Positions 5,567 to 46,311 of a stretch of DNA of 64,000 nucleotides are shown piece after piece. The DNA comes from Bombilactobacillus bombi (GTDB lineage Bacteria; Bacillota; Bacilli; Lactobacillales; Lactobacillaceae), in NCBI RefSeq assembly GCF_003522965.1, contig NZ_CP031513.1:1364001-1428000 (forward strand), read 5' to 3'. The notes below the pieces were generated by a model. The model saw only the letters and a program-made list of their open reading frames with translations, ran no database searches and was not told the origin of the DNA. Position numbers and translations under genes: made by a program. How positions within the stretch are numbered: position 1 is the first letter of the stretch; each line of letters opens with the position of its first letter.

Positions 5567-5696
5567 ACATAATATCTCCAAAAATTAAATCAATTATTCA
5601 AAATCTATTTGCTCTGCTTTTCATATATGCTTCTATAAAGCTGATACTTAGCGCTTTAAAGATATAAAATCTTAATTAAAAGCATCTTTATTGCAT

Positions 5697-6507: not shown

Positions 6508-9500
6508 TTAATTTGGACCTAAAGTCATTGTCCAAGTTAACGTAGCTTGATGTTTGCCTAAATTACTGGTTGATAAAGGTTTAGGTATTTTCAATACTGG
6601 TTCCATTATATTGTCACTGCCACCTGGTTTCCACAGTAAGAGCTTGTGGTCAGCTGGAAAACTCGAATTATCATATTTAAATTTCGTAATATTGTCATAG
6701 CTAATTGTATTAGTCTTTGGATCCTTATATTTATAATCTAAAAAATTAGAAAATAACTGATTAGAATCTTGAGAACTATCAGTAATTTCAGCAGTCAATA
6801 ATATCTTTTGCTTATCAGCTGTATCATTAAATATTGACAACTCTCCTTTAGCTGTTTTAGAAGCAATCTCTCCAGCAAAGTTTAGGTGTTTTTTGCCGTA
6901 ATCTATTGAAGTGGGCACATTTAAGACAACTGAACCCACGCTGTTAAAATTCAAACCGTCACTACGTCCTAATTCTTGAGTGGTTCCATCAGCGGCCTTA
7001 GATATAATCGTATCGGGACCAATAGTCACGGGAGTATTTTTAGTAGCTTCTACTTTAATTGTCCGTTTAATAGTGAATTGAATGCCCGCAGGAAATGCCT
7101 TCATACTACTATCCCAACCAAAGTAGCTCGGATCATAAACTTTTTGTGGATCAGCAGCTACGGGCTTCGTAGCTGTGATGGTTTTGCCGCTGGCATCTGT
7201 ATATGAGGCTGTAATCTGACCAGTACCACTATTGCTCCAATTTGGTGTATCACTAGTACTTTCGTGACCAAACATCACAGAATGAACAGGGGCATTCGCT
7301 TTAGGTGTATAAGTTGTAACCAAATTATAGCTGCCGTTTAAAATTTTCTGATGACCGTTTTTGTCCGTACCATAAGGGTTATTCGTAATCTTTTGCACCA
7401 CATTATACGCTGGCAGATTTAACACTTCATAATTCCAAATGAAGGTATCGCCGTCAGCTTTTTTATTTCGCTGATTCTCATCATAAGCCCTATTATTCGG
7501 AGAAGCATTGTCTTGTCCAATAAAAGTAAAACTATGCTTACCCACTATTGTAGCTTTTCCAATATTCCAACGAGTTTTAGTAACTTTTCTAATATTTAAC
7601 GGTTTAATTGTCGTAGTTATTGGTGTGGAATTATTTTTGGTTTGCCCACTTAAAGTTATTGCATCTGGCCCACCGTCACTTTTAGAACGATCATCCCCAT
7701 CATAATATTGGAAAGGAATTGCAATATCATCACCTAGTAAAAAGGACTGATCGTTATCTATCTTCATTGATAAGTTACGTACAAAAGTAATAGATAGTGG
7801 TGAAGATTGAAAATTCGTTACAGCACTAGTTTTAATTTGATCTGTTGCTTTCAAATGTAACGGTGCTTGTGGATGTTGCTTATTATATTTATCTAACAAA
7901 TCCCGTAGATTATACTGCACCTTATGGCGAAATCCCTCCAAGGCACCCGGTCCACTTAAATTAGGATTCCATTGACCATTGTCCCAAGTTACTTCTTTAT
8001 CTGACAAATACTTAGGATAAAGTTTATCAAAATCTGCCGCTGTTGGTTGTTGATATCTTTCCAACGGCTTACCTAAGTTGGGATTAGCGATTTTATTTCC
8101 CTGATCGTCATTTGCAAAGAGACTTAAATTCCCTAAATTATCATCTAAAATATTGGGAGTTACCGGATTAACATTTTCTGCAGTAGGGCCAATCAAACTA
8201 CTATCAGCTTTTTGTGTGGCTTCATATTGGCGATAATCATCATCATCAATATTTTTGAAATCACCTAAATCAATAGTACTCTTATCATCACGACAAACTT
8301 GAACCCTAATTTGTGGCGGAGCGGGATGAAATTCATCATATTGGGTATCATTCGTATAATCTTCCCATTCATCACCACCACTAGTAGCAGATATATTCCA
8401 ATCATCTCGGCTAGGATAAATAACATTAGATGGCCGATCTAATATTAGTGAAGGCCCTGGTAAATCAGACAAATTAATATACCGGAATTCTTTACCAAAC
8501 ATTTTAACCATAGCTTCTTTTAAGACGTCTAACTCATATTTTGGAGCTTGGATGACTTTACTACCATTTAAATAGAGCATTGGTGCTAATAAATTATGCG
8601 CAAAAGGCAAAGTTACTCGTTGAACTCTTATTGGCGGTTGACCATACATTCCCACTGAAACATTACCATATTCACTACTCGTAGTAGGATAACCTATAAT
8701 TTCACCATTACTACCGTTTATTAAGCCATTATCTCCTTCAGCTCTAATTTTAGTATCATAAGCATTGATATCTGCTCCACTAATACCAGCAACTAATGTG
8801 CTATTAGAAACAATTTTACCATTGGGCAATTTAATCCCATTGGGTACTTTAACCTCACTAGGTAGACCAGGAACTGAACCAACGCTGATAATTGTTCCCG
8901 TGTTAACATAAACCAAAGCACTATTTGGACAAGGATCATTTCTTAAATCCAAAGTAACATTTTTAGGATTGACAATATTAACTTTCATTGTATTCGCTGA
9001 ATATAAAAGATTTAATGGCTTATCACTACTATGATTTTTATCTGCAACTTCGAGATTAAAGTCTCCTCCAGTTCGAACATCAATACTCATATCGGGTCCC
9101 ACTGCCATTAAACCACCATTTTCGGGAGTATTATAATCACCTAAGTTATAAGCCTTAATACTAAACTTTCCGTGGGATAAATTAGCAGTCCCTCCAACAA
9201 AGTTAACTAAAGGATTATTTTTCAAAATTGCTCCCGCATTACTTGATTGATCATTGCCCAATCCACTATCAATATTTATTTCGCCCGGTTTAGAATCTTT
9301 GATATTATTATAAACCAATAGTGATGGCGAACTAGCCATATCAATAGCCCCACAAGGTTGTTTGGCGGCAGCAGCATGATTAAGATTAGGATCATTAATA
9401 TCATCATTATTGCAATGAATATTCAATTGTGCAGAACCATTCATTTCAATTTCTGGAACCAAACCATTATTTTGAGCGGCCATATAAATTCCCCAGGCCA

Positions 9501-10851
9501 TGCCTAATTGATTCGGACTATTCATCCCTCCGGGCGACTCAGGACTATCACCATGTGGATAAAGATTAACTACTGAACCATTTTCAAATGTTGCTTTCCC
9601 GGTTAAATACAAACATTGCCCATTGAATGTATAACCTGTGTAATGACAATCTTTAGCAAAAATAACTCGATCAACTTCAAAATTTTGTTGATTACCCGTT
9701 ATCCCGAGATTTTTTGTAATCCATTGGTAACTATCCCCTGGGATAAGGTAAGAATAAACTGAACGTACATTAACTGTACCGGCAATAGTAATTCCTGAAG
9801 TTTGACTACCTGTCCAAGAAAATTGAGAACCAGTATAATTAACGTCTCGATATGTAATCCAACTATAACCACCATTTAAGCCAGCTTTAGCAGTTTGAAT
9901 CTTATCATTGTTGGCCGGATCAGTATTCGGATCATAGTCAACATCGTTAGGATTTTTAGGTTCTGTATTCGCCAAATCATAGTTCGTGGCTAATCCTGTA
10001 TTACAACTAATAAATCCCCACCAACTAGTACCATAAATATCAAGATTTTCAACGGTCCAATTTTCCTTATATGGCTGAGTTGCCACTGGTTCTAGTTGTC
10101 TATCATGATGACCAGATAAAGCAAAGTTATTATAGCCCATATTAATACTATATTGTTTACCATCAATGATTAAATCATCATGACGAATATGGATATATTT
10201 ATATGAGTAAGATTTTCGAGCTTCTTCACCAGAACCACTAATATCTTGAGTTCTAGGACGATTAAAATAATAGGCTGTCGCTACATCATCAGGAAGATCT
10301 CTGATATCTAAGGAATTTTTGAGGTTAATTCGATGAATTTTGGAAACTGGTAATATCAAATTGGTCGCATAAGTTGGACTTTCGACGTTTAAGTTGGTAC
10401 CTAATGCTGCACCAGTAAATTTTTTCCACGCATCAGAATCTTGTGCATTAAAATTCCATTGGGGATTAGCTGGATCCCACAATGCTTCAAAAAAGCCTTT
10501 CCAAGTATAAACGTCGGCTATATAACCACCATTGCCATCACTAGATAATACGATATCTTGTTGATTGTCGGGTAACAAAGCATTGTTTTGATCCCGTAAA
10601 GCATAAACCGTCAAATATTCATCTGCAACATAAGCCATTCTGACATCATGCTGCGGTAATTCCCGTAACTGTGTGACATCTTTAATATTTACTGGAGAAG
10701 TTAGTGGTGTTGTATGTAATGATGGTACTTGTGTGTAACTAATTAAGTTATTTTTGTTAGCGTTTGCAATTGCCTGTACAAGCTGGGATTTTAAATACAA
10801 AACATTACAAACAATAAAAAATATAACAACAAGTTGAATACCCTTTTTCAT
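6508..10851 (-). CDS. Giant secreted beta-helix adhesin with WxL-type C-terminus (adhesin 3)
   Basis: A 1447-residue secreted protein. Signal peptide 1-28 (MKKGIQLVVIFF to VQA). Residues ~90-690 form the pectate-lyase-like beta-helix, with DLIIDGKQYSINMGYNNF, NLDIYGTSWWGFIS, FVGGTANLSHG and NPKNVTLDLR. Beta-sandwich modules follow. The C-terminal ~150 residues are WxL-like (VPTSIDYG at the start, LTWTMTLGPN at the end). The N-terminal half is closest to adhesin 4, while the last ~300 residues are almost the same as adhesin 2, so the gene looks mosaic. Unlike adhesins 2, 5 and 6 it has no mini-HTH directly upstream; the next gene upstream is the 69-residue membrane protein after mgtA. A possible TATAAT -10 box lies at 10908-10913. 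Confidence 0.88.
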   Translation of the reverse strand: MKKGIQLVVIFFIVCNVLYLKSQLVQAIANANKNNLISYTQVPSLHTTPLTSPVNIKDVTQLRELPQHDVRMAYVADEYLTVYALRDQNNALLPDNQQDIVLSSDGNGGYIADVYTWKGFFEALWDPANPQWNFNAQDSDAWKKFTGAALGTNLNVESPTYATNLILPVSKIHRINLKNSLDIRDLPDDVATAYYFNRPRTQDISGSGEEARKSYSYKYIHIRHDDLIIDGKQYSINMGYNNFALSGHHDRQLEPVATQPYKENWTVENLDIYGTSWWGFISCNTGLATNYDLANTEPKNPNDVDYDPNTDPANNDKIQTAKAGLNGGYSWITYRDVNYTGSQFSWTGSQTSGITIAGTVNVRSVYSYLIPGDSYQWITKNLGITGNQQNFEVDRVIFAKDCHYTGYTFNGQCLYLTGKATFENGSVVNLYPHGDSPESPGGMNSPNQLGMAWGIYMAAQNNGLVPEIEMNGSAQLNIHCNNDDINDPNLNHAAAAKQPCGAIDMASSPSLLVYNNIKDSKPGEINIDSGLGNDQSSNAGAILKNNPLVNFVGGTANLSHGKFSIKAYNLGDYNTPENGGLMAVGPDMSIDVRTGGDFNLEVADKNHSSDKPLNLLYSANTMKVNIVNPKNVTLDLRNDPCPNSALVYVNTGTIISVGSVPGLPSEVKVPNGIKLPNGKIVSNSTLVAGISGADINAYDTKIRAEGDNGLINGSNGEIIGYPTTSSEYGNVSVGMYGQPPIRVQRVTLPFAHNLLAPMLYLNGSKVIQAPKYELDVLKEAMVKMFGKEFRYINLSDLPGPSLILDRPSNVIYPSRDDWNISATSGGDEWEDYTNDTQYDEFHPAPPQIRVQVCRDDKSTIDLGDFKNIDDDDYRQYEATQKADSSLIGPTAENVNPVTPNILDDNLGNLSLFANDDQGNKIANPNLGKPLERYQQPTAADFDKLYPKYLSDKEVTWDNGQWNPNLSGPGALEGFRHKVQYNLRDLLDKYNKQHPQAPLHLKATDQIKTSAVTNFQSSPLSITFVRNLSMKIDNDQSFLLGDDIAIPFQYYDGDDRSKSDGGPDAITLSGQTKNNSTPITTTIKPLNIRKVTKTRWNIGKATIVGKHSFTFIGQDNASPNNRAYDENQRNKKADGDTFIWNYEVLNLPAYNVVQKITNNPYGTDKNGHQKILNGSYNLVTTYTPKANAPVHSVMFGHESTSDTPNWSNSGTGQITASYTDASGKTITATKPVAADPQKVYDPSYFGWDSSMKAFPAGIQFTIKRTIKVEATKNTPVTIGPDTIISKAADGTTQELGRSDGLNFNSVGSVVLNVPTSIDYGKKHLNFAGEIASKTAKGELSIFNDTADKQKILLTAEITDSSQDSNQLFSNFLDYKYKDPKTNTISYDNITKFKYDNSSFPADHKLLLWKPGGSDNIMEPVLKIPKPLSTSNLGKHQATLTWTMTLGPN
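6589..7437. repeat. Near-identical 849-bp block shared with 1331-2179
   Basis: The second copy of the shared 3' block. The reading frame and boundaries match the copy in adhesin 2. The right boundary falls just after the EVLNLPAYNVVQ module, where the two proteins become different. Confidence 0.88.
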
Positions 10852-29567: not shown

Positions 29568-30060
29568 TTAATCCAAACTATTAGTAGCACTCCAGGTCAT
29601 CTTGCCTGCATAATGTCCTGTTTTATTCGGTTGCGCCCTCGTCTGCAAAAAAAGACCCGATTTTTGATTTTGTTTACTATCCCACCAATTATCTAAAATA
29701 TGTTTCGTTTTTAGATTATCTGTTGGCGAACTCTTAATTGTATTAATGGTTGTTGTTTTATTCGTCAAAATTGTGAAAGATTTTATCGGTACTATTATTT
29801 AAAATATGATGACCATAATCAATAGTATCGGGAACTGTTAACAAGAGATAGTAAGGATTAGCAAATTTCAAAGATTTTGTTTGTGCTAATGGATGATCCA
29901 GCTCATTGCCAGCATGATTAACGGATGGCGTTTGCTTGTCATTAAAGATTAATGATTGTATTTGTATTACTGCTCAAAATTAGTATCCGACTGTGCAGAT
30001 TGAGCAACATTAACTTACCATGAAATGAAAAATACCAGTATTATAAATAAATTTGTAAAA
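29568..30060 (-). pseudogene. Remnant of a WxL-type surface-protein gene
   Basis: The last ~66 codons read NWWDS, GLFLQ and GHYAGKMTWSATNS, the C-terminal WxL pattern of adhesins 5 and 6. Just upstream, in another frame, VPDTIDYGHH matches the WxL-domain opening of the other adhesins (VPASIDYG). Further upstream, around 29980-30060, a hydrophobic stretch and VNVAQSAQS look like a signal-peptide end, again with stops and frame changes. So an adhesin gene has suffered an internal deletion and frameshifts. The ends of the relic are approximate. Confidence 0.72.
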
Positions 30061-30210: not shown

Positions 30211-33200
30211 TTAATTAATGCTGTTTTTTATTGTCCAAGTTATTTTGGTGGAATATTTACCAATAGTTACTCCCTTAGGTACATTCAAATGAATAGTATT
30301 ACTATTCCAAGTTAACTTCAGTGATTCAGACTTATAAGTAGGACCTGATAATGTATTAGGAGTATCCTTTAATCCGTTCACTTTTAGAACTTGATGTTCC
30401 ATCTTATCTAAAGGTAAAGTAAAGCCACTCTGTAAATAGGTGGAAAAACTGTCATTAATGGTAGGTTCGTTCTTAAGACCAGTCGATTTATATTCAATGT
30501 TTGACGGTTTATCAAATTTAATAGTAGGTATTACTGACATACTAGTGCCATTACTCAATTTGAAATTATCTGCTTGTACAGATAAATCCCATTCTCGATC
30601 AGGCCATTGCATACTCTTATCTGCATAAGTGAAACCATCGTCTATTTGAACGGTAACAGGATTAGCTTGATTCTTATTATCACGTTTTAAGTCTTCCAAA
30701 AATCCCTTACCAAAGTCAATATTGTTAGAAGTTTTTACACTAAGACCATTATCAGCATCTTTGGAAACATAGACAAAAACAATTACTTGATTATCCGCGC
30801 CATATTTTCCCATAGCCCACGCATTATTTTTAGTTTTATCTTTTTCCTTAATATTATAAGGATGGAAAACTCCTTGTGAAGTTCCCACGGTATATTGATA
30901 GTACCCTAAATAGCGATAATTTTTTATTTGAGGAGCTGGAGAGCCAGAATAAACTTTTTTCACTTTAGACGAATCTTCACCTTGAAATTTAGCCGGTGGA
31001 GTAATCGGCCCATCATCACTAGGATTAGTACTAGGAGATACTATTGGTTGGTTAATTGGCAGTTCTTCTGCGATTGGCACATCTTTGTTAACACCATTTT
31101 CAACATAGCTGCGAATAGTATAGTTACCATTTGTTGAATGAGCTTTTAGAGAATAAAGATTTAATGAGGGTGAATTGTTAGGCCAACTACTACTACCAGA
31201 ACTAAAGTAATTAGATGGATCTAAAATATTAGAGCCTTTATTATTATTAACCGCCGCATATTGGAAAGTTACTCGACTTACAGTAGGACTATAATATACT
31301 TTGATAGTTTTTGCTTGATTATTATTATAAGTGAATTCTAAATTCGTCAAATCAGTAATGGTTAAAGGTGTTTCATTATTCTTGTCATCAACTAATACAG
31401 CTTTCTCAAAGAGATAGTCCTTTTTTGCAAAACTATTGAGATATTTTGGCACTGGTGTAGGACCATCTGTTGCATCAGGAGTTATAGCATTATAACTATT
31501 TCCAATTTCTTTAACAACCGAAGTTACATCAGCTGGATGTGTAGTATTCTTGGGATCATTAACATTAATTGGTCTATTATTAGTATTATCAACGTATTTA
31601 AAGTTATAAGTTCCATTAGGAACACGAACATTGGAAGTATATGAGTCTTGTAAATAATTTGTGGAATCTGTTATTGAATGATACTTTTCTACCTGTCCTT
31701 CCTTTCGGAAAACATCAGTATTCATACCTTGCATTTTAGCAGCAACATAATCTTGACCATCTATTTGTGTCACATCTTTTTTCCAAGGATATTCTCCATT
31801 AACCTTTTTATCCCAGTCAATTTTAAAATTCAAATCTCCTTTGATAAACAAGTTGCTGAATCCATTAAAACCAGGAGCAAGTCCTAACACCATGGATGTA
31901 TCCAGTTTATAATTATATACTTTCTTGCCTGCAGGAGGATTGGCGCTTTCTTCTAAACTCTGTGGTTTATATTGTGGAAGAGAAGGCACACCATTGACAG
32001 CACTATCAAGCTGAGAATTATTCAATGCACTAATTTCAATATTTGACAAATCAATGCTGAGATAATTTGGAACCTCAACATTATTAACTTTAACCACTGA
32101 AGGAGCTACTGGTTTAGGAGTAATTGGCTGTGGTGGAAGCTTTTGGTATATTTTAAATTGCACCGTCTGAGGACTATATTTGCTTTTATTTGAAGTAACA
32201 ATCTCATCGGAACTATCAGTTACATTTCCAAAATTATTCGTAGTACCCTCAAAATCAGTATAAGGAATCTCTGCTCTAAAGGTAGCATTATTACTCATAT
32301 TAGTGTACATAGCACCACCAGTATCTCCTCTACCACTAAAGATATCTGTCACCCTTAAATGACCATGATTAAATAAATATAGAAAACCATTATCTAACCT
32401 TGTACCAGAGTTATCAATACCTACTCCGGAAACTTCAAAGTAATTTTCAGCGCCTGGTGCAGTATTTTGATGACCCTTAACCTGAGTAGGAGTACCGCTT
32501 ATGACAGATTTTTTTCCATTGCTATTTTGTCCATAAGTTACTCCATTATTAATGAGTAAAAGTCGGTTGCCATCACCAGTACCTAAAGTATCTAAGTCAG
32601 CTTTATCAAATGCGTATATCTTACGTTCATTAACATTAAACACCTGAAAATTACCGGAAGCATCAATAGGCGTATCGTTTTTTTCGTTTGGAGTAGGATT
32701 AGCTTTAGTAGAACGATCATAAACAAACTTAATATCTATAATCCAGCGTGAAGCCTCTGGATTATTATTACGCATCTTTCTAGAAGCTACAGTTGTATAA
32801 CTTACAGGGTTTAACCAATTTAATGTATTAGGATTACCAGGAGCCCCTAAGTTAAAATAAACGTCTGCATTATCATTACGAGGAATAGCTAGAGTATTAG
32901 GATCTATTCTTACAAAATTCATCCAAGCATCTGCAGTCGAATTAGTCCTATCCCAGCCTATAGGACTATTTTGATTTGTATTGCCATTAGTCCCTTCCAA
33001 AGTGAATGTGTACACCGCATCAACCCATTTACCTCGATAAAAACCTACTTTTTTAATAATAAAAGAAGCTGGTTTACGATGATCTTTAATTAAAAAACCA
33101 TTTTGAAAAGGAGATTGCCAAGCCCATAAATTATTTGAAAATAGAAAATTATCAATATTGGTATAAACATTGTCAGGTTTAGTTTTATCTTTATTGTCAG

Positions 33201-33564
33201 GATTAGTGGGATCATATTGCGCAAAGTTGGCAGGTGCTGACAAGGTTAAATCACTATATTTACGCGGAATATAGTCAGTATCAGGATTATTAACATCCTT
33301 TATTTCTACAAAATTCGAAAAATCTTCCGTCGTCTGCTTATTCCTGCCATCTAAGAAATCCCATTTCCCAAATACATCAGTAAATTTTTGATATTCGTCG
33401 CCATCAAATATTGTTGGTCCCCCAGCACGTAGCAGAATATTACGATTGTTAATAATATCTTGAAAAGAATCTGCTCGTACAATAGTCAAATTGCAAACTA
33501 AAATTAAAAAAACTCCTAATATTGTACTACTCATATAACTGGTTATTTTATGATTCATTGTCAT
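30211..33564 (-). CDS. Large secreted WxL-domain surface protein (different architecture)
   Basis: 1117 residues from the ATG at 33564, which follows GAAGGGA; an upstream in-frame GTG at 33597 has no ribosome site. Signal peptide ~1-33 (MTMNHKITSYMSS to VRADS). Residues ~110-450 are beta-rich and unlike the beta-helix adhesins (FSGRGDTGGAMYTNMSNN). Two MucBP-like segments follow, at ~650-770 (YNFKYVDNTNN to KTIKVYYS) and ~840-940 (to QVIVFVYVS). The last ~150 residues form a convincing WxL domain with both motifs, REWDLSVQADNFKLSNGTS and ITWTIKNS. It should bind the cell wall without covalent linkage. Role inferred: adhesion, possibly to mucin-like or glycan ligands. Confidence 0.85.
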   Translation of the reverse strand: MTMNHKITSYMSSTILGVFLILVCNLTIVRADSFQDIINNRNILLRAGGPTIFDGDEYQKFTDVFGKWDFLDGRNKQTTEDFSNFVEIKDVNNPDTDYIPRKYSDLTLSAPANFAQYDPTNPDNKDKTKPDNVYTNIDNFLFSNNLWAWQSPFQNGFLIKDHRKPASFIIKKVGFYRGKWVDAVYTFTLEGTNGNTNQNSPIGWDRTNSTADAWMNFVRIDPNTLAIPRNDNADVYFNLGAPGNPNTLNWLNPVSYTTVASRKMRNNNPEASRWIIDIKFVYDRSTKANPTPNEKNDTPIDASGNFQVFNVNERKIYAFDKADLDTLGTGDGNRLLLINNGVTYGQNSNGKKSVISGTPTQVKGHQNTAPGAENYFEVSGVGIDNSGTRLDNGFLYLFNHGHLRVTDIFSGRGDTGGAMYTNMSNNATFRAEIPYTDFEGTTNNFGNVTDSSDEIVTSNKSKYSPQTVQFKIYQKLPPQPITPKPVAPSVVKVNNVEVPNYLSIDLSNIEISALNNSQLDSAVNGVPSLPQYKPQSLEESANPPAGKKVYNYKLDTSMVLGLAPGFNGFSNLFIKGDLNFKIDWDKKVNGEYPWKKDVTQIDGQDYVAAKMQGMNTDVFRKEGQVEKYHSITDSTNYLQDSYTSNVRVPNGTYNFKYVDNTNNRPINVNDPKNTTHPADVTSVVKEIGNSYNAITPDATDGPTPVPKYLNSFAKKDYLFEKAVLVDDKNNETPLTITDLTNLEFTYNNNQAKTIKVYYSPTVSRVTFQYAAVNNNKGSNILDPSNYFSSGSSSWPNNSPSLNLYSLKAHSTNGNYTIRSYVENGVNKDVPIAEELPINQPIVSPSTNPSDDGPITPPAKFQGEDSSKVKKVYSGSPAPQIKNYRYLGYYQYTVGTSQGVFHPYNIKEKDKTKNNAWAMGKYGADNQVIVFVYVSKDADNGLSVKTSNNIDFGKGFLEDLKRDNKNQANPVTVQIDDGFTYADKSMQWPDREWDLSVQADNFKLSNGTSMSVIPTIKFDKPSNIEYKSTGLKNEPTINDSFSTYLQSGFTLPLDKMEHQVLKVNGLKDTPNTLSGPTYKSESLKLTWNSNTIHLNVPKGVTIGKYSTKITWTIKNSIN

Positions 33565-33597
33565 CACATTCCCTTCTCGAAAGCGACTAGTTTTCAC

Positions 33598-35595: not shown

Positions 35596-35745
35596 TTATT
35601 TAATAGTATACAGTAAAATGTCATCATTAGTCACAGTCGTTTGAGAAGGAATAGTAACTTCACTAAATTCAGAAGAATTAGTAATTACCACTGGTGTAGT
35701 GATATCATAATCAGCTTGTTTAATAGCATCTAAATCTACATCCAT
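35596..35745 (-). pseudogene. C-terminal relic of a beta-glucoside PTS EIIBCA gene
   Basis: About 50 codons reading VDLDAIKQADYDITTPVVIT and ending before AAGGAGG of the bgl gene. This matches the extreme C-terminus of the IIA domain of BglP-type PTS permeases, which usually precede a 6-phospho-beta-glucosidase. An in-frame stop lies just upstream and the rest of the ~620-codon gene is gone. The breakpoint is near 35745. It could in theory be expressed as a peptide but has no ribosome site. Confidence 0.78.
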
Positions 35746-36302: not shown

Positions 36303-36488
36303 TTAAATAATTACATCAATTGGAATATTCAAAAGATCATGTAATTTTTGAATTTCACGCTTAGTAAAGTCAGTATGATTATTAATTTTTCGATTTGTCG
36401 CCGATAGCGAACGTCCAATAATTTTAGCAACTTGTTGTTGCTTGATATGATTTGCTTTCAGATACCCCAACAATTTATTTTCTTCCAT
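36303..36488 (-). CDS. Mini-HTH DNA-binding protein, copy B (orphan)
   Basis: 61-62 residues, nearly the same as copies C and D: LLGYLKANHIKQQQVAKIIG, then LSATNRKINNHTDFT and NIPIDVII. The second of two adjacent ATGs is used here; the first (36491) is equally possible. Unlike the other copies it is followed by its own terminator and not by an adhesin gene. It may have lost its partner, or may act in trans on the neighbouring adhesin loci with the same recognition helix (inference). Confidence 0.8.
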   Translation of the reverse strand: MEENKLLGYLKANHIKQQQVAKIIGRSLSATNRKINNHTDFTKREIQKLHDLLNIPIDVII

Positions 36489-36491
36489 CAT

Positions 36492-37291: not shown

Positions 37292-40200
37292 TTAAATACT
37301 ATTGGATAAATTCCAAATAATCTTACCTTTATATTTCCCCCAATGAGCGTCAGTTGCTTTACTTTTCAGAAATACACCAGCTACTTGCTTATCGTTATCC
37401 CACCAGTCATTACTTAAGTGCGTATTAACTGGACTATTCTGGGAACCATCAATTCTTGCAGGTAGTTGCTTATCATATATAGGTACGGATATCGGTTGTC
37501 CGTTATTATCATAGAAAGATACTTCACGGTGCGGCGCGACTGTTTGCTTAAAAAACAACGCATTCTTCCATATATTATTGCTATCATCAGTCAAATCATT
37601 TTGCAATTTCATAGTTACCTGTAAATGGTTGTTCGCAATTGGATCATAAACTAACAACAAGTTGTCATAAACACTCTGTTTATTAGTTAGAGAATAAGTG
37701 GTATCAGTAAATTTACCTACTCGATGCTTGCCAAAGTCTAAGCGGTTCGGCACCGTTAATTGAAGATAATAAACATTTCCAATCTTAATTTGGCCACTTT
37801 CCCCTAATTGGATATCTTCATGACTGCCATCGCTATGCGTAAAGTCTGTCTGCATATGCAGCGAGGCAAGTTTCAAATCTTTAGTCGGCTTCAAAACTCG
37901 GACATTCGTATCCACTTCAAAACTTGTTCCTTGTGGAAAACTACCGCCTACGGCAATTAAACCAAAATCTTTAGGCAACACTTTAATCGGATTACCATTG
38001 GTAATATAGGTATGCGTTTGTGATTTACCCGCCTTATTCGTGGCTATCACTTTGACTACATGATTAACCTGTACATCTGGCGAATCTGTATCAGCAGCAG
38101 TCCCATCACCTCGAGTAAAGGTGACATTATCAATGGTTGCTGTGTCATCCTTTGGTGTAAAGAAGTCCTTTTCGGTATAATTACCCATTCCCAGACGGTC
38201 GGGATTAGTGAATCCCGCTTCTGTACTGAATCGCTTATCCTGGCCTTGATACAGCTGTTTATTTCCAGAATAGCCTGGCAAATTCAGCACCGTATACTTA
38301 TAAGAGATTAATTGGTCTGCCAAGATATTGCCACCATCATCAAAGGCATTGGTTGGACTTTGTCCACCCTGATCATCAGTACCATAAAATTTTAATTCGT
38401 AGTCTTTGGTACTGCCGGTAACTTTATTCGGAGGTGTTGCCGGAATCGTCCAAGTAAGCTGATTGGACTTATTATCACCCTTAATTGTCAAATCACTACT
38501 AAAGTCCGCCGCATTCGGTTTTAAAGTTGAGTGAGCCGTCGGATTCAGATAGCCTTTAACATTCATCTGCTTCGAAGAAGCAATATTTTCTTGATAAATC
38601 AGTGGTACTTGAATATCATCACCTAAAACGTAATATTTTTTGGCTTGCTTATCATTAAGATTCAGATACAAACTACTGATTTTGACAGTTTTAACCACTG
38701 ACGCTTGAAAATTATTCACCACCGTTATTTGTAATTTATCATTAGGTACTAAAGTCCCAATTGGATTAGCAGCATTATTCTTATCGTATTCTGCCAGCAG
38801 CTTATCTACATCCAACTGGAAATGACCTGTATTATCCCAAGTGACTACCTTGGAATCAGTTACATAACGCCAAGGCTGTGCCAACAAATTGCCTTTGGCT
38901 GTCAAATCACTAGTAGCTATTCCAGAACTATCATGATGGTGTTCAAACCACAGTCCTTCATCAGGTTCAACTGCTGTGGGTGTTGGTGCTGGCGTAGCAA
39001 AGATATTTCCTGGATCTAAGGAATCTTTATTCGGATTCAACTCCGCAACTGTGGCCCCACTATCGCCCAAATCAATCGGAGTACTAGAACCTGTGCGAGT
39101 CAAAGTGACATGCAGACGTGCACCGATAGCAGGTTGACGTGCAGTATTATCATCTACAACATCACCTTCAATTAAACGATGTTGCGGATCAATAGTTGGT
39201 AAGGGCTTGGCAATCACTTGTCCCGGATCAATTGCAGTTGCATCAAACACTCTAAATTGTGGGAAGCTACTATTATTATTAGGAGATAGTTGGGCTAAAA
39301 GTTGTTTTAATTTAACCAGATTAGTCGCACTTGTTTGCGCGGACATTGTAGTACCATTAGCACTACTTTGCAATCTATCACTAGAAAAAGGTAAGTTCAA
39401 ATATTGAAATTGTGTATCTCTTATAGAGATATCCGGACCTGAAGGGTCATCAGGATTATCTGCAAGCGCCGTTTCTTTAACACCATGCATTTCAACATTC
39501 CCTGTACCATGAAGCAGAACCGAAGCTTTATTAGGGCGCTCTAAATGAAGCTTCTTTGGTTTATAAATATTAATTCTACAAGAACCCCTACTATTAATTA
39601 AATAAACTCGCGATGTCGCTTTAGGAGCGCTCATTGAAAAACTCCCATTGCGATCAACAAAAATATTAGCTGCATTGGAAGTAGACAAGAGACTAGCTGT
39701 TGCCCCATTATTATTACCCAAATTCTTAGCTTCTACATTCATCTCGCCTTCACCAATATTGGCTTGACCACCAGTCAAATTAATTAAATTATTCGAACCA
39801 ATGGCACCATCACTTTTAATATTAATCACCGAGTTAGAATTAGTAACATATTGTAAATTACCGCGACCAGATAAAGATAATGCTAGTGGTGTAGCATAAA
39901 ATCCATCAGTCATTCTTGAATCATACCAAGTATCATTCTTATCTTTTAAAATTAATCCTTTATCAGCAGTTGGGATACTATCAGCTAAGGGCTTGCGGTC
40001 AACTATAATATTTAACTGTGCATTATGTTGCATCGTTAAATCACCTTGATTGCCAACAACTGCTAACCCAATAGGTGTATTACCTGCAGGAACTACTCCT
40101 GCTTCAGCTGCGGAATTATGGTTAGGTCCACCACGCATATAATGTGGATGTAATTCAACATTAGCTCTGTCGCCAACTGTTACATTACCTGTAACTAAAA

Positions 40201-41353
40201 GTACGTGGCCACCATACGTATAACCTTTAAAATTACAATCTGCATCAAAATTAATATTCTGACCTTCTAATAATTGTTGAGCAGAACCAGTAATAGTTCC
40301 TTGACAACTATATACATTACCATCAGGACCAATATAAGAATACAGTGCATAACCTGTACAATCACCTTGAAAATGGACTGTAACTCCAGAGTTACTATAT
40401 AATAACTGCGATCCATAATAAGTTATATCTTTATACGTAAGTACAGTGGGTACCGAAGTCATATTCTCAGTTCTAATCGGACCAAAAAAATTACTGCCAT
40501 ATATTTTCATATTATTTAAAGTTATATTTGCAGCGCGACTTTGTCTTAAAAAAATACTAAAATTTCCTAAATTCCAAGTATGTCCTTGGCCATCAATAGT
40601 AAAAGTCGACTGTACTTTTCCTGATATTTCAGTAGTAAGATCGTCGGGCTTATTCGAAGAATGAATAATCCTCAAATTCCATTCTCCACCATCTTGTCCT
40701 GAATATTTTCCCGAATGAGGTGCTGATGGGCTCGTTAATGAACCATAATTATTAATTCGCGAAAAATTCAACATGTAAGGATCATGATTAACATTATTAA
40801 TAGCTCCCGTACTGCGAACAGTGGCACCTGCTCCAGTCGATGGAGTAGCAAAGGTAATATCAGGATCATTGGCCAAATTAGGAATATCGATATCTTTAGT
40901 TAAAACGATTTTAGTAATATCTGAATATCCCCATGTACCAGTCCCACTACGAATGTCTATATTTTTATAATCCGTACCAAATCCATAGATAGCATGCAGA
41001 AGTTGTTTAGCATTATGCACATAAGCTATTTTGCCTCCATCTGGATTATCTGTCAGATAAAAATCATTATTGGTTGGCCAAGGAATAGTGCTGTCATCAA
41101 CAACAAAAGTTGAGGGCATCCCTAATCTTTCTATATGATTATTTGTTGAGCGAGACTGTGTAGGCAAAATATTTTGCCTAAAATTAACCAGATTGTTGAT
41201 ATCATAATTGGCATCAGAAAAAGCAGCTGCATATCCAACATGGCCCCCCACAGCTAAGAAAAAGCTACTAATTAAAAAAGCAATAACTATTTGAGTTTTT
41301 TGAATACTTGTTTTCCAATATGTATTCACACTCTTTGGTTTTGTATCAATCAT
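37292..41353 (-). CDS. Giant secreted beta-helix adhesin with WxL-type C-terminus (adhesin 5)
   Basis: 1353 residues; ATG preceded by GAGGTG. A long signal peptide ends near residue 44 (FLISSFFLAVGGHVGYAAA). Beta-helix region ~75-640, with STFTIDGQGHTWNLGNFSIF, NMKIYGSNFFGPI, LTGGQANIGEG and INIYKPKKLHLERP. Beta-sandwich modules ~690-1200. The C-terminal WxL-type domain has VPNRLDFGKHRV at ~1213 and ends in IIWNLSNSI, preceded by NDWWDNDKQVAGVFL. It pairs with adhesin 6, sharing a nearly identical ~350-residue stretch, while the N-terminal halves differ. A mini-HTH gene lies 84 bases upstream. Surface adhesion is inferred from the domain family. Confidence 0.88.
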   Translation of the reverse strand: MIDTKPKSVNTYWKTSIQKTQIVIAFLISSFFLAVGGHVGYAAAFSDANYDINNLVNFRQNILPTQSRSTNNHIERLGMPSTFVVDDSTIPWPTNNDFYLTDNPDGGKIAYVHNAKQLLHAIYGFGTDYKNIDIRSGTGTWGYSDITKIVLTKDIDIPNLANDPDITFATPSTGAGATVRSTGAINNVNHDPYMLNFSRINNYGSLTSPSAPHSGKYSGQDGGEWNLRIIHSSNKPDDLTTEISGKVQSTFTIDGQGHTWNLGNFSIFLRQSRAANITLNNMKIYGSNFFGPIRTENMTSVPTVLTYKDITYYGSQLLYSNSGVTVHFQGDCTGYALYSYIGPDGNVYSCQGTITGSAQQLLEGQNINFDADCNFKGYTYGGHVLLVTGNVTVGDRANVELHPHYMRGGPNHNSAAEAGVVPAGNTPIGLAVVGNQGDLTMQHNAQLNIIVDRKPLADSIPTADKGLILKDKNDTWYDSRMTDGFYATPLALSLSGRGNLQYVTNSNSVINIKSDGAIGSNNLINLTGGQANIGEGEMNVEAKNLGNNNGATASLLSTSNAANIFVDRNGSFSMSAPKATSRVYLINSRGSCRINIYKPKKLHLERPNKASVLLHGTGNVEMHGVKETALADNPDDPSGPDISIRDTQFQYLNLPFSSDRLQSSANGTTMSAQTSATNLVKLKQLLAQLSPNNNSSFPQFRVFDATAIDPGQVIAKPLPTIDPQHRLIEGDVVDDNTARQPAIGARLHVTLTRTGSSTPIDLGDSGATVAELNPNKDSLDPGNIFATPAPTPTAVEPDEGLWFEHHHDSSGIATSDLTAKGNLLAQPWRYVTDSKVVTWDNTGHFQLDVDKLLAEYDKNNAANPIGTLVPNDKLQITVVNNFQASVVKTVKISSLYLNLNDKQAKKYYVLGDDIQVPLIYQENIASSKQMNVKGYLNPTAHSTLKPNAADFSSDLTIKGDNKSNQLTWTIPATPPNKVTGSTKDYELKFYGTDDQGGQSPTNAFDDGGNILADQLISYKYTVLNLPGYSGNKQLYQGQDKRFSTEAGFTNPDRLGMGNYTEKDFFTPKDDTATIDNVTFTRGDGTAADTDSPDVQVNHVVKVIATNKAGKSQTHTYITNGNPIKVLPKDFGLIAVGGSFPQGTSFEVDTNVRVLKPTKDLKLASLHMQTDFTHSDGSHEDIQLGESGQIKIGNVYYLQLTVPNRLDFGKHRVGKFTDTTYSLTNKQSVYDNLLLVYDPIANNHLQVTMKLQNDLTDDSNNIWKNALFFKQTVAPHREVSFYDNNGQPISVPIYDKQLPARIDGSQNSPVNTHLSNDWWDNDKQVAGVFLKSKATDAHWGKYKGKIIWNLSNSI
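37641..38690. repeat. Near-identical ~1.05-kb block shared with 42482-43531
   Basis: Adhesin 5 and adhesin 6 are aligned at a constant offset of 4841 here with very few substitutions. Similarity falls sharply on both sides, although the reading frame and domain layout continue. It looks like a recent gene-conversion tract. Confidence 0.9.
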
Positions 41354-41437
41354 CTTTTCACCTCAATTATGATAATCTGTCCAACCATTAACTAAAATCA
41401 TAAGCTCTAATCGAATGATAGGATCTAAAAGTTGCAC

Positions 41438-41626
41438 TCACAATAAAATGTCAATCGGTATCTTTAAAATATCGTGTAATCTTTGAATTTCTTGTCTCGT
41501 GAAATCACTATGATTATTAATTTTACGGTTCGTAGATGATAAGGAACGCTCAATAATCTCTGCAACTTGTTGTTGCTTAATATGATTAGCCTTTAAATAA
41601 CCTAATAATTTGTTTTCTTCTTTCAT
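41438..41626 (-). CDS. Mini-HTH DNA-binding protein, copy C, upstream of adhesin 5
   Basis: 62 residues from the ATG at 41626, chosen because AAAGGTGA lies 7 bases upstream; an earlier in-frame ATG at 41641 overlaps that region. Helix-turn-helix IKQQQVAEIIERSLSSTNRKI; the usual Gly before the turn (IIG) is Glu here. Tail KIPIDILL. It precedes adhesin 5 by 84 bases on the same strand and is probably transcribed with it. Likely a Cro-like autoregulator or adhesin regulator. Confidence 0.82.
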   Translation of the reverse strand: MKEENKLLGYLKANHIKQQQVAEIIERSLSSTNRKINNHSDFTRQEIQRLHDILKIPIDILL

Positions 41627-41641
41627 TTGTTCACCTTTCAA

Positions 41642-42041
41642 CTTTTATAAATTTTTAAAACGATTACATTAAGTCCAAAACAATCTATAAATTAAAAAAG
41701 AAGTATAACTAGTTATTAAACCTAATATCTAATTCAGCCATTATGCTTCATTAACACAAAGTGCATGGACTTTTCTTATCATTTATATCCTATTCAAAAG
41801 ATTAGACACTAATAATATAATTACTTTTTCAATATAACATACATTTATTTTAAGATTAAAGTTTTATGCTTAAATTTGTTTTTTTTAATTTATTGAATAA
41901 ACACTAATATAGCAAGGATCATTTCCAATAAATGGTGATATTTAAAATAAAATATAGCTTGTTTTTGCGATTTTATTAAAAAAAATTAATAGAAAATAAA
42001 ATTTATATACTCTATGCCTCAAACTATTATTTGTAACAAAA
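41642..42041. other. AT-rich intergenic region
   Basis: Upstream of mini-HTH copy C. No gene or repeat seen. It must hold the promoter for the mini-HTH/adhesin 5 unit on the minus strand. Confidence 0.5.
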
Positions 42042-42108
42042 AAGAACATCGCTCAAAAAGTTTTTATTGATAAAATCCCATCAATAAAAGCATCTCAAAC
42101 AATGTTCT
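42042..42108 (-). terminator. Two-tier terminator of adhesin 6
   Basis: Outer arms AGAACAT/ATGTTCT and an inner stem TTTTATTGAT/ATCAATAAAA, 33 bases past the stop. The outer element resembles that of adhesin 5. Confidence 0.78.
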
Positions 42109-42141
42109 ACTTCAATCTGGCTGAATATTTAAATTATTTTG

Positions 42142-45100
42142 TTAAATACTATTAGTTAAATTCCATGTTATTTGACCTTTATATTTCCCCCAATGAGCAT
42201 CAGTTGGCTTACTTTTTAGAAAAACACCGGCAACTTGCTTGTCAGAATTGTTCCACCAATTTTCACTTAAGTGCGTATTAACTGGTAAATTACCAGAATT
42301 TCCTACTGTTGTAGAATATACGGGAACAGCAACAGGATTGCCACTACTATCCTTCTGGAAAAATTGGGCCGCAGAAGCACTTGTCTGTTTAAAGAACAAT
42401 GCATTTTCCCATATATCATTATTATCATTAGTCAAGTCGCTTTGCAGTTGCATAGTGACTTTGAGCTGATTTCTAGTAATCGGATCATAAACTAACAACA
42501 AGTTGTCATAAACACTCTGTTTATTAGTTAGAGAATAAGTGGTATCAGTAAATTTACCTACTCGATGCTTGCCAAAGTCTAAGCGGTTCGGCACCGTTAA
42601 TTGAAGATAATAAACATTCCCAATCTTAATCTGCCCGCTTTCCCCTAATTGGATATCTTCATGACTGCCATCACTATGTGTAAAGTCTGTCTGCATATGC
42701 AGTGAGGCGAGTTTCAAATCTTTAGTCGGCTTCAAAACTCGGACATTCGTATCCACTTCAAAACTTGTTCCTTGTGGGAAACTACCGCCTACGGCAATTA
42801 AACCAAAATCTTTAGGCAACACTTTAATCGAATTACCATTGGTAATATAGGTATGCGTTTGTGATTTACCCGCCTTATTCGTGGCTATCACTTTGACTAC
42901 ATGATTAACCTGTACATCTGGCGAATCTGTATCAGCAGCAGTCCCATCACCTCGAGTAAAGGTGACATTATCAATGGTTGCTGTGTCATCCTTTGGTGTA
43001 AAGAAGTCCTTTTCGGTGTAATTCCCCATTCCTAAACGGTCGGGATTAGTGAATCCCGCTTCTGTACTGAATCGCTTATCCTGGCCTTGATACAGCTGTT
43101 TATTTCCAGAATAGCCTGGCAAATTCAACACCGTATACTTATAAGAGATTAATTGATCTGCCAAAATATTGCCACTATCATCAAAGGCATTGGTAGGACT
43201 TTGTCCGCCCTGATCATCAGTACCATAAAATTTTAATTCATAGTCTTGGGTACTGCCGGTAACTTTATTCGGAGGTGTTGCCGGAATCGTCCAAGTAAGC
43301 TGATTGGACTTATTATCACCCTTAATTGTAAAGTCACTACTAAAGTCAGCCGCATTCGGTTTTAAAGTTGAGTGAGCCGTCGGATTCAGATAGCCTTTAA
43401 CATTCATCTGCTTTGAGGAAGCAATATTTTCTTGATAAATCAGTGGTACTTGAATATCATCACCTAAAACGTAATATTTTTTGGCTTGCTTATCATTAAG
43501 ATTCAGATACAGACTACTGATTTTGACAGTATAAACAGTTGACGCTTGAAAGTTATCAACTGCAGTTACAGTTAGCTTATCACTTGGTAATAGTGTGCCT
43601 ATTTTATTTACTGCAGTCTTATCATATGTCCGGACAATATCATCAATGTCTAAAGAAAAGTTATTATTATCTTTCCCACTCCAAGTAAGAGCAGAAGATG
43701 TTACATATTTCCATGGTTTAGACAATCTGTTACCAGGACTTGTCAAAGAATCTTGTACTACACCTGCAATATGATGGTCTGCAAACCAGCTAACTTTATC
43801 AGGTTCTACTGCAGCATAATTAGGCGTTGATAAATTTTGCGGATCTATGGAATCCAAATCTGGATCTAGCTTCGTAATGTCATCACTAGTATCGCCTAAA
43901 TCAATTGCAGTAGGTGAACCTGCTCTTTGCAGCGTAACGTGTAGACGAGCATTATTAAACGGCTGAGTTTTATCATCAGCATCAACTACACTCCCAGTGA
44001 TTTTTCTTTGTACCGGATCAATATTAAATTGATTTTTAGTAATATCTGGGCCATCATCAATTGTAGTTACATCAATTTTTTCAAATTGTTTAAATTGTGT
44101 ATTAGATGGATTCGTTGGATTCGTTGATAATGATTGCAAAATTATATTTAACTTTTTCAAAGCACTGGTACTAGTTTGAGCATTCATTATATTACCATTA
44201 CTACTACTATACATATAATTACCATAAAACGGTAACTTTAAATATTGAAATGGAATAGTTATTGGCTTACCAGTTCCTGTTGGATTAGGAATAATCTCTT
44301 TAACATCCCTCATTTCTACACTACCAGTACCATAAATAATATTACTTCCAGGATTAGTATTGGGACGAGCAATACTTAAGCTCTTAGGCTTATAAACATT
44401 GACTTTAAAAGTCCCTGAACTATAAACCATATTAACATTACCTGTAGCTTTAGGTGCTTGAATATCAAATGAACCATTTTTATTAACAAACACTTTACCA
44501 GTAGAGCCTAATTGGACTAAATTAACATTACTTGCGCCTAAATTATTGGCAGCTATATGCATATTACCTTCACCAATATCTATAACCCCACCTTGAATCA
44601 AGGCGATTCCGTATCCTGCCAAAGCGCCATCACTAGTTAAATTAATTGTTGAATTAGAATGATCAACATACTGAATTTTACTATTGGCAGCACTTAAAAT
44701 TAGGGCAGTGGCAGGAGTCCTATAGCCAGTATCCATAATCGGATCATGATAAACAGTATCAGGATTAAGCTTGGTTAATACGTCAGCTAATGGCTTGCGA
44801 TCAACTTGAATATTCAGTTGAGCATTTTTACCGATTTTTAATTGTGGTACTGATCCAGCAGTACCACCACCAAGCATATAAATACCCGCACCGGTACTAT
44901 TACCATAAGAATCTTCAGGAATAAGATTAACCGCAGTAGTAATTCCGGTAGTAGGAGTACCAACTCCAGTATGGGGATAAAGGGTGACTTTAGCGCCATC
45001 ATGCACGGTCGCTCCCCCTGTTAATTCCAAAACATTTCCCGCATAAGTATAACCGTTATAAATACAATCTTCACCAAAATCTACATTCTGCGCTTGCATA

Positions 45101-46095
45101 TTCTGTTGGTTGCCATCACCCTGACAATGATAAGATCTAGAATCTCCCGGCACATAATACTCTCTTAGAGAAAAGGCATTAATGGTACCATAAGTTTCAA
45201 TATTAACATTTCCACTACTATACAAAAATTGAGAACCATAATAATTAACATCGCGATATATTTCCTGCGTATTACCACGGCCCCAAATATATCCATAAAA
45301 GCTACTATTATAGATAGTGGCATTTTGTAATGCAATCGTCATTTTATAATTACCACCGACATCACAAGTTTGAATAGCCATATTACCTACATTTATAGAG
45401 TGATTATTAGCTTCAATAGTTAAGGTGTTGTCCTTTGAAGGCCGTTGTATTGCCATTGTTCTTGGAGCATCACCCCCCGTATGATTGCCAGAAATACCGC
45501 TTAATAAATTTCCCCAAATGGGTAGTGTAAATTTATTATTGGTATTGGGATAATTCATTGTGATATCAGGATTATTAGGATTCGGATTAGTTGGACTAGT
45601 AGCAGAAGTATTAACCAAATCAATATCGGCTACTAAAACAACTTTAGTAATATTTGATTTGTTTGTATAAGTGTCACTATTAGGAACTTGATCGTAATTT
45701 TGTGGATTAGGATCCCCTACGCTACTATACCCATAAATAGCATGTAAATATTGATTAGGTGTCCTAACGTAAGCAATGTATCCACCATTAGAATTAGGGT
45801 CTAAATCTGGCGCTAAAGCATAATCATTGTTGGCAGGCCAGACCAGATTGCTTGGTACTGGAGTTTGCGAACGAACATTTGCAGTATTGATGTTATTATT
45901 AGAAACCTTCGGAATGAGAACACCTAAGCCCTGAGAATTAATCAGCGTTGTAATATCCATATCCAAATCATTGGCTCGCACGTCAGATTTAGTAACCTGA
46001 TAATTATTAAACAATCCAAAAATAACTATTACTAATAATAAGGGAAATAGAAATAACTTTTTTTCTTTAAAATAACTACTGCACAATTTAAACAT
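42142..46095 (-). CDS. Giant secreted beta-helix adhesin with WxL-type C-terminus (adhesin 6)
   Basis: 1317 residues; ATG preceded by GGAAG. Signal peptide ~1-41 (LFLFPLLLVIVIFGLF to VRAND). Beta-helix region ~90-620, with LTIEANNHSINVGNMAIQ, NATIYNSSFYGYIWG, VIDIGEGNMHI and KVNVYKPKSLSIARP. Beta-sandwich modules follow. The WxL-type C-terminus has VPNRLDFGKHRV, then SENWWNNSDKQVAGVFL and ITWNLTNSI. N-terminal Cys residues sit at YHCQGDGNQQN and EDCIYNGYTY, as in adhesin 2. A mini-HTH gene lies only 27 bases upstream, so the two almost certainly share a transcript. Confidence 0.88.
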   Translation of the reverse strand: MFKLCSSYFKEKKLFLFPLLLVIVIFGLFNNYQVTKSDVRANDLDMDITTLINSQGLGVLIPKVSNNNINTANVRSQTPVPSNLVWPANNDYALAPDLDPNSNGGYIAYVRTPNQYLHAIYGYSSVGDPNPQNYDQVPNSDTYTNKSNITKVVLVADIDLVNTSATSPTNPNPNNPDITMNYPNTNNKFTLPIWGNLLSGISGNHTGGDAPRTMAIQRPSKDNTLTIEANNHSINVGNMAIQTCDVGGNYKMTIALQNATIYNSSFYGYIWGRGNTQEIYRDVNYYGSQFLYSSGNVNIETYGTINAFSLREYYVPGDSRSYHCQGDGNQQNMQAQNVDFGEDCIYNGYTYAGNVLELTGGATVHDGAKVTLYPHTGVGTPTTGITTAVNLIPEDSYGNSTGAGIYMLGGGTAGSVPQLKIGKNAQLNIQVDRKPLADVLTKLNPDTVYHDPIMDTGYRTPATALILSAANSKIQYVDHSNSTINLTSDGALAGYGIALIQGGVIDIGEGNMHIAANNLGASNVNLVQLGSTGKVFVNKNGSFDIQAPKATGNVNMVYSSGTFKVNVYKPKSLSIARPNTNPGSNIIYGTGSVEMRDVKEIIPNPTGTGKPITIPFQYLKLPFYGNYMYSSSNGNIMNAQTSTSALKKLNIILQSLSTNPTNPSNTQFKQFEKIDVTTIDDGPDITKNQFNIDPVQRKITGSVVDADDKTQPFNNARLHVTLQRAGSPTAIDLGDTSDDITKLDPDLDSIDPQNLSTPNYAAVEPDKVSWFADHHIAGVVQDSLTSPGNRLSKPWKYVTSSALTWSGKDNNNFSLDIDDIVRTYDKTAVNKIGTLLPSDKLTVTAVDNFQASTVYTVKISSLYLNLNDKQAKKYYVLGDDIQVPLIYQENIASSKQMNVKGYLNPTAHSTLKPNAADFSSDFTIKGDNKSNQLTWTIPATPPNKVTGSTQDYELKFYGTDDQGGQSPTNAFDDSGNILADQLISYKYTVLNLPGYSGNKQLYQGQDKRFSTEAGFTNPDRLGMGNYTEKDFFTPKDDTATIDNVTFTRGDGTAADTDSPDVQVNHVVKVIATNKAGKSQTHTYITNGNSIKVLPKDFGLIAVGGSFPQGTSFEVDTNVRVLKPTKDLKLASLHMQTDFTHSDGSHEDIQLGESGQIKIGNVYYLQLTVPNRLDFGKHRVGKFTDTTYSLTNKQSVYDNLLLVYDPITRNQLKVTMQLQSDLTNDNNDIWENALFFKQTSASAAQFFQKDSSGNPVAVPVYSTTVGNSGNLPVNTHLSENWWNNSDKQVAGVFLKSKPTDAHWGKYKGQITWNLTNSI
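42482..43531. repeat. Near-identical ~1.05-kb block shared with 37641-38690
   Basis: The second copy of the adhesin 5/6 shared block. It covers the beta-sandwich module from KISSLYLNLNDKQ to the middle of the WxL-type domain (YDPI). Confidence 0.9.
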
Positions 46096-46122: not shown

Positions 46123-46311
46123 TCAAATAATAATATCAATCGGTATATTTAAAGAACTATGCAATTTTTTAATTTCTCTTTTAGTAAAATCACTATGATT
46201 GTTAATTTTGCGATTTGTCGTAGATAATGAGCGGCCAATAATCTCTGCTACCTGTTGTTGTTTAATATGATTAGCTTTAAGGTAGCCTAATAATTTGTTT
46301 TCCTCGTTCAA
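46123..46311 (-). CDS. Mini-HTH DNA-binding protein, copy D, upstream of adhesin 6
   Basis: 62 residues. The start is a TTG preceded by GGAGG at 7 bases; no ATG fits. HTH IKQQQVAEIIGRSLSTTNRKI, tail NIPIDIII. The 27-base gap to adhesin 6 makes this the clearest mini-HTH/adhesin operon. A weak TTG start would keep the regulator level low compared with the adhesin. It is divergent from another small HTH gene (46479) across a region with a GTCCTA/TAGGAC inverted repeat. Confidence 0.84.
   Translation of the reverse strand: MNEENKLLGYLKANHIKQQQVAEIIGRSLSTTNRKINNHSDFTKREIKKLHSSLNIPIDIII

Follow-up and report, generated by a model that had tools for sequence, protein, structure and literature searches.

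Probable polarised gene conversion in two tandem adhesin gene pairs of a bee-gut Bombilactobacillus homogenises the predicted stalk and anchor

Ectopic recombination between the paralogous adhesin genes babA and babB of Helicobacter pylori is reported to mediate antigenic variation (PMC3444412). Non-crossover copying between surface genes has been described for mgpC of Mycoplasma genitalium, the pil genes of Neisseria and the vlsE cassettes of Borrelia (PMC2169797; PMC4534519; PMC2779866). Tandem giant surface genes with N-terminal beta-solenoids resembling the SRRP of L. reuteri occur in Apilactobacillus kunkeei (PMC12863079). Bombilactobacillus itself corresponds to the bee-gut "Firm-4" group, from which a cluster of tandem cell-surface genes, cscA/cscB with DUF916, DUF3324 and WxL genes, is known (PMC4449606).

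The genes analysed here lie in a window of 64,000 nucleotides, which is the whole stretch of DNA under study and part of a single-contig Bombilactobacillus genome of 1.84 Mb.

37292-41353, minus strand: adh5, open frame for a predicted surface adhesin of 1353 aa with a Pectate_lyase_5 match; putative recipient and mosaic gene
42142-46095, minus strand: adh6, open frame for a predicted surface adhesin of 1317 aa with a Pectate_lyase_5 match; putative donor-type gene

Arranged head-to-tail and 4.8 kb apart, both are full-length frames with an HTH mini-gene ahead of each. The Pectate_lyase_5 (PF20585) matches at the N-termini of adh5 and adh6 reach 37.3 and 33 bits, respectively, compared with a curated cut-off of 24.3. 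Like babA and babB, the two are paralogous adhesin genes of one genome that appear to have recombined. They differ from the H. pylori genes in that only the predicted stalk and anchor moved while the binding ends stayed distinct. In contrast to mgpC, pil and vlsE, there are no silent partial cassettes of N-terminal domains, adh5 and adh6 are both complete, and the variable part is not what moves: exchange of the exposed variable domain was not found in this pair (aa 45-640 of adh5, grouping of adh5 with adh6 rejected at p 1.6e-8). A search for silent, promoterless partial donor copies yielded none, the only fragment being a C-terminal remnant at 29574-29970. The authors of the A. kunkeei study report no sign that its paralogues recently underwent gene conversion (PMC12863079), whereas two tandem pairs are affected here. 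The cscA/cscB cluster shares the host group with adh5 and adh6, which are not Pfam WxL proteins.

The two genes have in common a tract of about 1.05 kb.

37641-38690, minus strand: putative young converted tract, adh5 copy (aa 889-1237), identical to 42482-43531 at 1021 of 1050 positions, dS 0.12
42482-43531, minus strand: putative young converted tract, adh6 copy, with the same identity, dS, change-point and edge evidence

The first-pass annotation had described a nearly identical block at a constant offset of 4841 without indels and strongly diverged sequence on either side of it, and both observations were borne out. The ungapped copies differ at 29 positions (97.2% identity), and their longest exact runs measure 186 and 137 bp. 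Identity does not fall evenly along the genes: at this offset, 50-bp windows are 88-100% identical inside the tract and 70-78% at its edges, followed by chance level. A two-boundary likelihood scan of the adh5/adh6 codon alignment placed the change-points at 37643 and 38689, within two bases of the tract borders, with 28 mismatches in 1047 positions of the scanned block versus 1223 in 2763 outside. The gain in log-likelihood for such a block was 386, whereas the best of 20 codon shuffles gave 15.6. The edges are sharp at the level of single bases. Beyond them, protein identity is uneven, with 32-50% before and 53-87% after the tract. A slight clustering of the mismatches inside the tract (p 0.03-0.09) means that it may comprise several events.

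Silent sites give the same picture. In the comparison of adh5 with adh6 by the Nei-Gojobori method, pS and dS are 0.63 and 1.37 before the tract, 0.11 and 0.12 inside it, and 0.68 and 1.72 after it, so that both flanks are near saturation. Inside, 25 silent changes face 4 replacement changes, and replacement divergence is low (dN 0.005). As silent-site divergence drops from 1.4-1.7 to 0.12, selection at the protein level cannot account for the tract. Core genes of the window genome and its Bombilactobacillus relatives show a dS of 1.5-1.9 or are saturated, and the exchange between adh5 and adh6 is therefore much younger than the divergence of the species. The earlier proposal of recent gene conversion between neighbours thus stands as far as conversion is concerned, to which a polarity can now be added. 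"Recent" holds relative to species divergence but not in the sense of a current event, given the 25 silent differences. These either accumulated since the exchange or already existed between donor and recipient.

Two relatives, one genome per species, were available for comparison. B. mellis Hon2 has a single homologue of adh5 and adh6, located between beta-glucosidase and MFS genes, and B. bombi XV6 has a single homologue beside its bgl operon. Both sites correspond to the neighbourhood of adh5 and adh6. The two homologues were retrieved with an alignment as query; a query with adh6 only gave no match in the genome contigs. Since each relative has one homologue at the same site, the event can be polarised. 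Trees built from the sequence preceding the tract pair adh5 with the gene of B. bombi XV6 (97/98) and adh6 with that of B. mellis (100/100), and a grouping of adh5 with adh6 is rejected (p 1.6e-5, or p 4.7e-7 with fewer rows). In the tract, adh5 and adh6 are sisters (100/99) next to B. mellis; the clade of these three has a support of 99/97, and adh5 with B. bombi XV6 is rejected (p 1.5e-5). Protein identity to B. mellis is 54% in the tract and 55% in the N part of adh6 versus 37% in the N part of adh5. The conflict between the tract tree and the N-part tree marks adh6-type sequence as the source and adh5 as the recipient. That the adh6 type overwrote part of adh5 is well supported by these sequence comparisons.

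On both sides of the young tract, adh5 appears to carry older layers.

38714-39421, minus strand: adh5 aa 645-880, older saturated segment of adh6/B. mellis type, adjoining the young tract; 5' limit approximate
37292-37640, minus strand: adh5 3' end (aa 1246-1353), putatively homogenised with adh6 in an older exchange and saturated at silent sites

While aa 45-640 of adh5 form a lineage of their own, a relationship of aa 645-880 to B. bombi XV6 is rejected (p 0.0017) and this segment joins the clade of adh5, adh6 and B. mellis (96/95). Its limit at aa 645, which is approximate, was taken from a 75-aa identity profile and lies close to where the predicted beta-solenoid ends. The last 108 aa of adh5 group with adh6 (85/94), and the alternatives adh6 with B. 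mellis (p 0.0046) and adh5 with B. bombi XV6 (p 0.021) are rejected. We read both segments as probable earlier rounds of the same process.

Of a bglF-type PTS gene, only a remnant of the 3' end is left in the window (35596-35745). As B. bombi XV6 possesses the full order bglG-bglF-bgl (L031:16045-18828), the bgl operon has been partly deleted in the window genome. A homologue of gene 4 (30211-33597, 1128 aa), which lies on the other side of the bgl gene in the window, is found directly upstream of the adh5 orthologue in B. bombi XV6. The remnant at 29574-29970 is what is left of the 3' part of an adhesin gene; it is degraded, split into separate frames and corresponds to the putative C-terminal wall-binding part.

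Structure predictions give a beta-solenoid N part and a beta-sandwich C part.

44206-45468, minus strand: predicted beta-solenoid (binding) domain of adh6 from an AlphaFold2 model, not homogenised; limits approximate

The best PDB match of the N-terminal AlphaFold2 model of adh6 (mean pLDDT 70) was the binding region of the Limosilactobacillus reuteri SRRP, 5nxk (E 2.9e-6, TM 0.62 by target length), which indicates likeness of fold only. The beta-solenoid folds of adh6 and the SRRP binding region (5nxk, 5ny0) are alike at a sequence identity of 14%. Serine-rich repeats and an LPxTG anchor were not seen when the adh5 and adh6 translations were read by eye. In the C-terminal model (mean pLDDT 79), beta-sandwich-like domains follow one another in a row, and a PDB search with this model returned only generic beta-sandwich proteins (TM about 0.2). 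Judged by these models, the tract would correspond to predicted Ig-like stalk domains and run into the terminal domain. The position of this terminal domain and the WNL motif that ends both proteins suggest that it binds the wall. A first W-x-L motif was found in neither protein, and Pfam WxL (PF13731) matched neither adh5 nor adh6, nor their positions in the genome search. Among the WxL genes of the genome, only gene 4, whose C-terminus reaches the Pfam WxL cut-off, is in the window; the others are situated elsewhere.

The block in adh5 and adh6, the one case in the first-pass annotation, is accompanied by a second one at the start of the window.

1250-5581, minus strand: adh1, second tandem pair, putative donor type
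6508-10851, minus strand: adh2, second tandem pair, putative recipient
1250-2198, minus strand: putative second converted tract, adh1 copy, 92.4% identical over 951 bp and reaching the stop codon
6508-7456, minus strand: putative second converted tract, adh2 copy, with the same identity and dS evidence

Over their last approximately 950 bp, dS between adh1 and adh2 is 0.25 versus 1.79 outside. Trees of the N part place adh1 next to a B. bombi XV6 gene as its sister and reject a grouping with adh2 (p 5e-5); those of the tract unite adh1 and adh2 (100/100) as sister to that same adh1 orthologue (94/88). Since the tract places both genes beside the adh1 orthologue and the N part does not, the adh1 type overwrote adh2. 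In transcription order the donor is upstream in one pair and downstream in the other, so that the direction is not fixed. When the large genes retrieved from the three genomes were compared all against all, adh5/adh6 and adh1/adh2 alone among the adhesin pairs shared a block exceeding 82% identity, and the partners in both are direct neighbours. In two further tandem adhesins at genome positions 1356403-1360698 and 1360918-1365087, partly at the window start, the N parts belong to the adh1 clade but the C parts to the adh5 clade, a combination suggestive of an older exchange of N and C modules.

Taken as a whole, the sequence data make it probable that the common base of adh5 and adh6 was homogenised by gene conversion and that the same happened in adh1 and adh2. 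According to this explanation, adh5 and adh6 would be old tandem paralogues. After the split from B. mellis, recombination without crossover would have placed in adh5 about 1.05 kb of adh6-type sequence that covers the predicted stalk and the beginning of the C-terminal domain. Earlier exchanges would have hit the adjoining piece of the stalk as well as the 3' end, leaving adh5 as a layered mosaic in which an N-terminal beta-solenoid of its own sits on a base resembling adh6. By the same process adh1-type sequence would have entered adh2. We infer a RecA-dependent mechanism and a donor that was the neighbour on the same chromosome, as we do the functions of the adh5 and adh6 proteins. Against the explanation counts that the event was not seen as a polymorphism, one strain of the species having been examined.

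An adh6-type tract might instead have come from another strain on transformed or transduced DNA and have been integrated by recombination in adh5 or in both genes. The tract dS of 0.12 leaves room for an allelic donor, and the GC3 of the tract, 0.35 in both copies, exceeds that of all other adhesin segments of comparable size; it compares with 0.18-0.26 upstream in the same genes and 0.22 in the B. mellis orthologue, and would also fit a block arriving from elsewhere. However, the tracts of both pairs find their best match in the directly adjacent gene, and no such block occurs in the other Bombilactobacillus genomes examined, in plasmids or in viral contigs. We therefore regard import as unlikely. 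A plasmid or phage source was discarded for want of a match. GC-biased conversion as the cause of the GC3 excess was likewise set aside, the signal being weak in adh5/adh6 (p 0.02-0.05, uncorrected) and absent from adh1/adh2.

The tandem arrangement and the extension of the adh1/adh2 tract to the stop codon would be expected from a recent duplication in which the ends of one copy were later replaced. Such a history is very improbable, since adh5/adh6 would need two separate replacements, both flanks being saturated at silent sites, and since the N part of adh5 is orthologous to the B. bombi XV6 gene in the corresponding location, which makes adh5 an old gene. Its simple form is ruled out by the N-part trees. 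Strong constraint on a conserved domain without any recombination would agree with the dN of 0.005, which reveals purifying selection on the tract, but silent divergence is about ten-fold lower there and the homologous B. mellis region is only 54% identical at the protein level. The silent-site contrast refutes constraint on its own, and we give it next to no weight. Equally negligible is an assembly artefact in which reads of one gene filled the other. Near-identical tandem copies are a classical hazard of assembly, yet the 29 differences are scattered and almost all silent, the two tracts differ in age (dS 0.12 and 0.25), the genome is a single contig and the frames are intact.

Gene conversion as the preferred explanation is a well-known kind of process, seen here in polarised form and repeated at a second pair. 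The suggestion that the block is a possible route to surface variation is not supported by the analysis. The exchanged part is the predicted stalk and anchor, the N-terminal beta-solenoids keep their separate orthology, and the effect is homogenisation. Its net result would be concerted evolution of the common base with distinct binding ends. The two tandem pairs thus provide a polarised example, from a bee-gut symbiont, of concerted evolution limited to the wall-proximal half of large adhesins. Near-identical tracts between surface genes need not imply antigenic variation. Predicted recombinants are a 4.84-kb deletion and a hybrid gene. More speculatively, and with low confidence, the HTH-led tandem adhesins might form a modular system, in which repeated conversion keeps stalk and anchor interchangeable, so that recombination at a shared base could swap, delete or regain binding domains.

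The HTH mini-genes encode short Cro/CI-like proteins.

46123-46311, minus strand: HTH mini-gene, 62 aa, just upstream of adh6, one of 7 genome copies
41438-41641, minus strand: HTH mini-gene upstream of adh5, one of 7 genome copies
36303-36491, minus strand: HTH mini-gene downstream of adh5, no adhesin behind it, with a copy at the matching place in B. bombi XV6

A scan for promoter and terminator consensus sequences gave counts no higher than in shuffled sequences. Six of the seven copies are located directly upstream of an adhesin gene, and a role as dedicated regulator of each adhesin is possible. Copies are also present in B. bombi XV6 and in one more member of the genus, where the mini-gene precedes a pectate-lyase-like gene.
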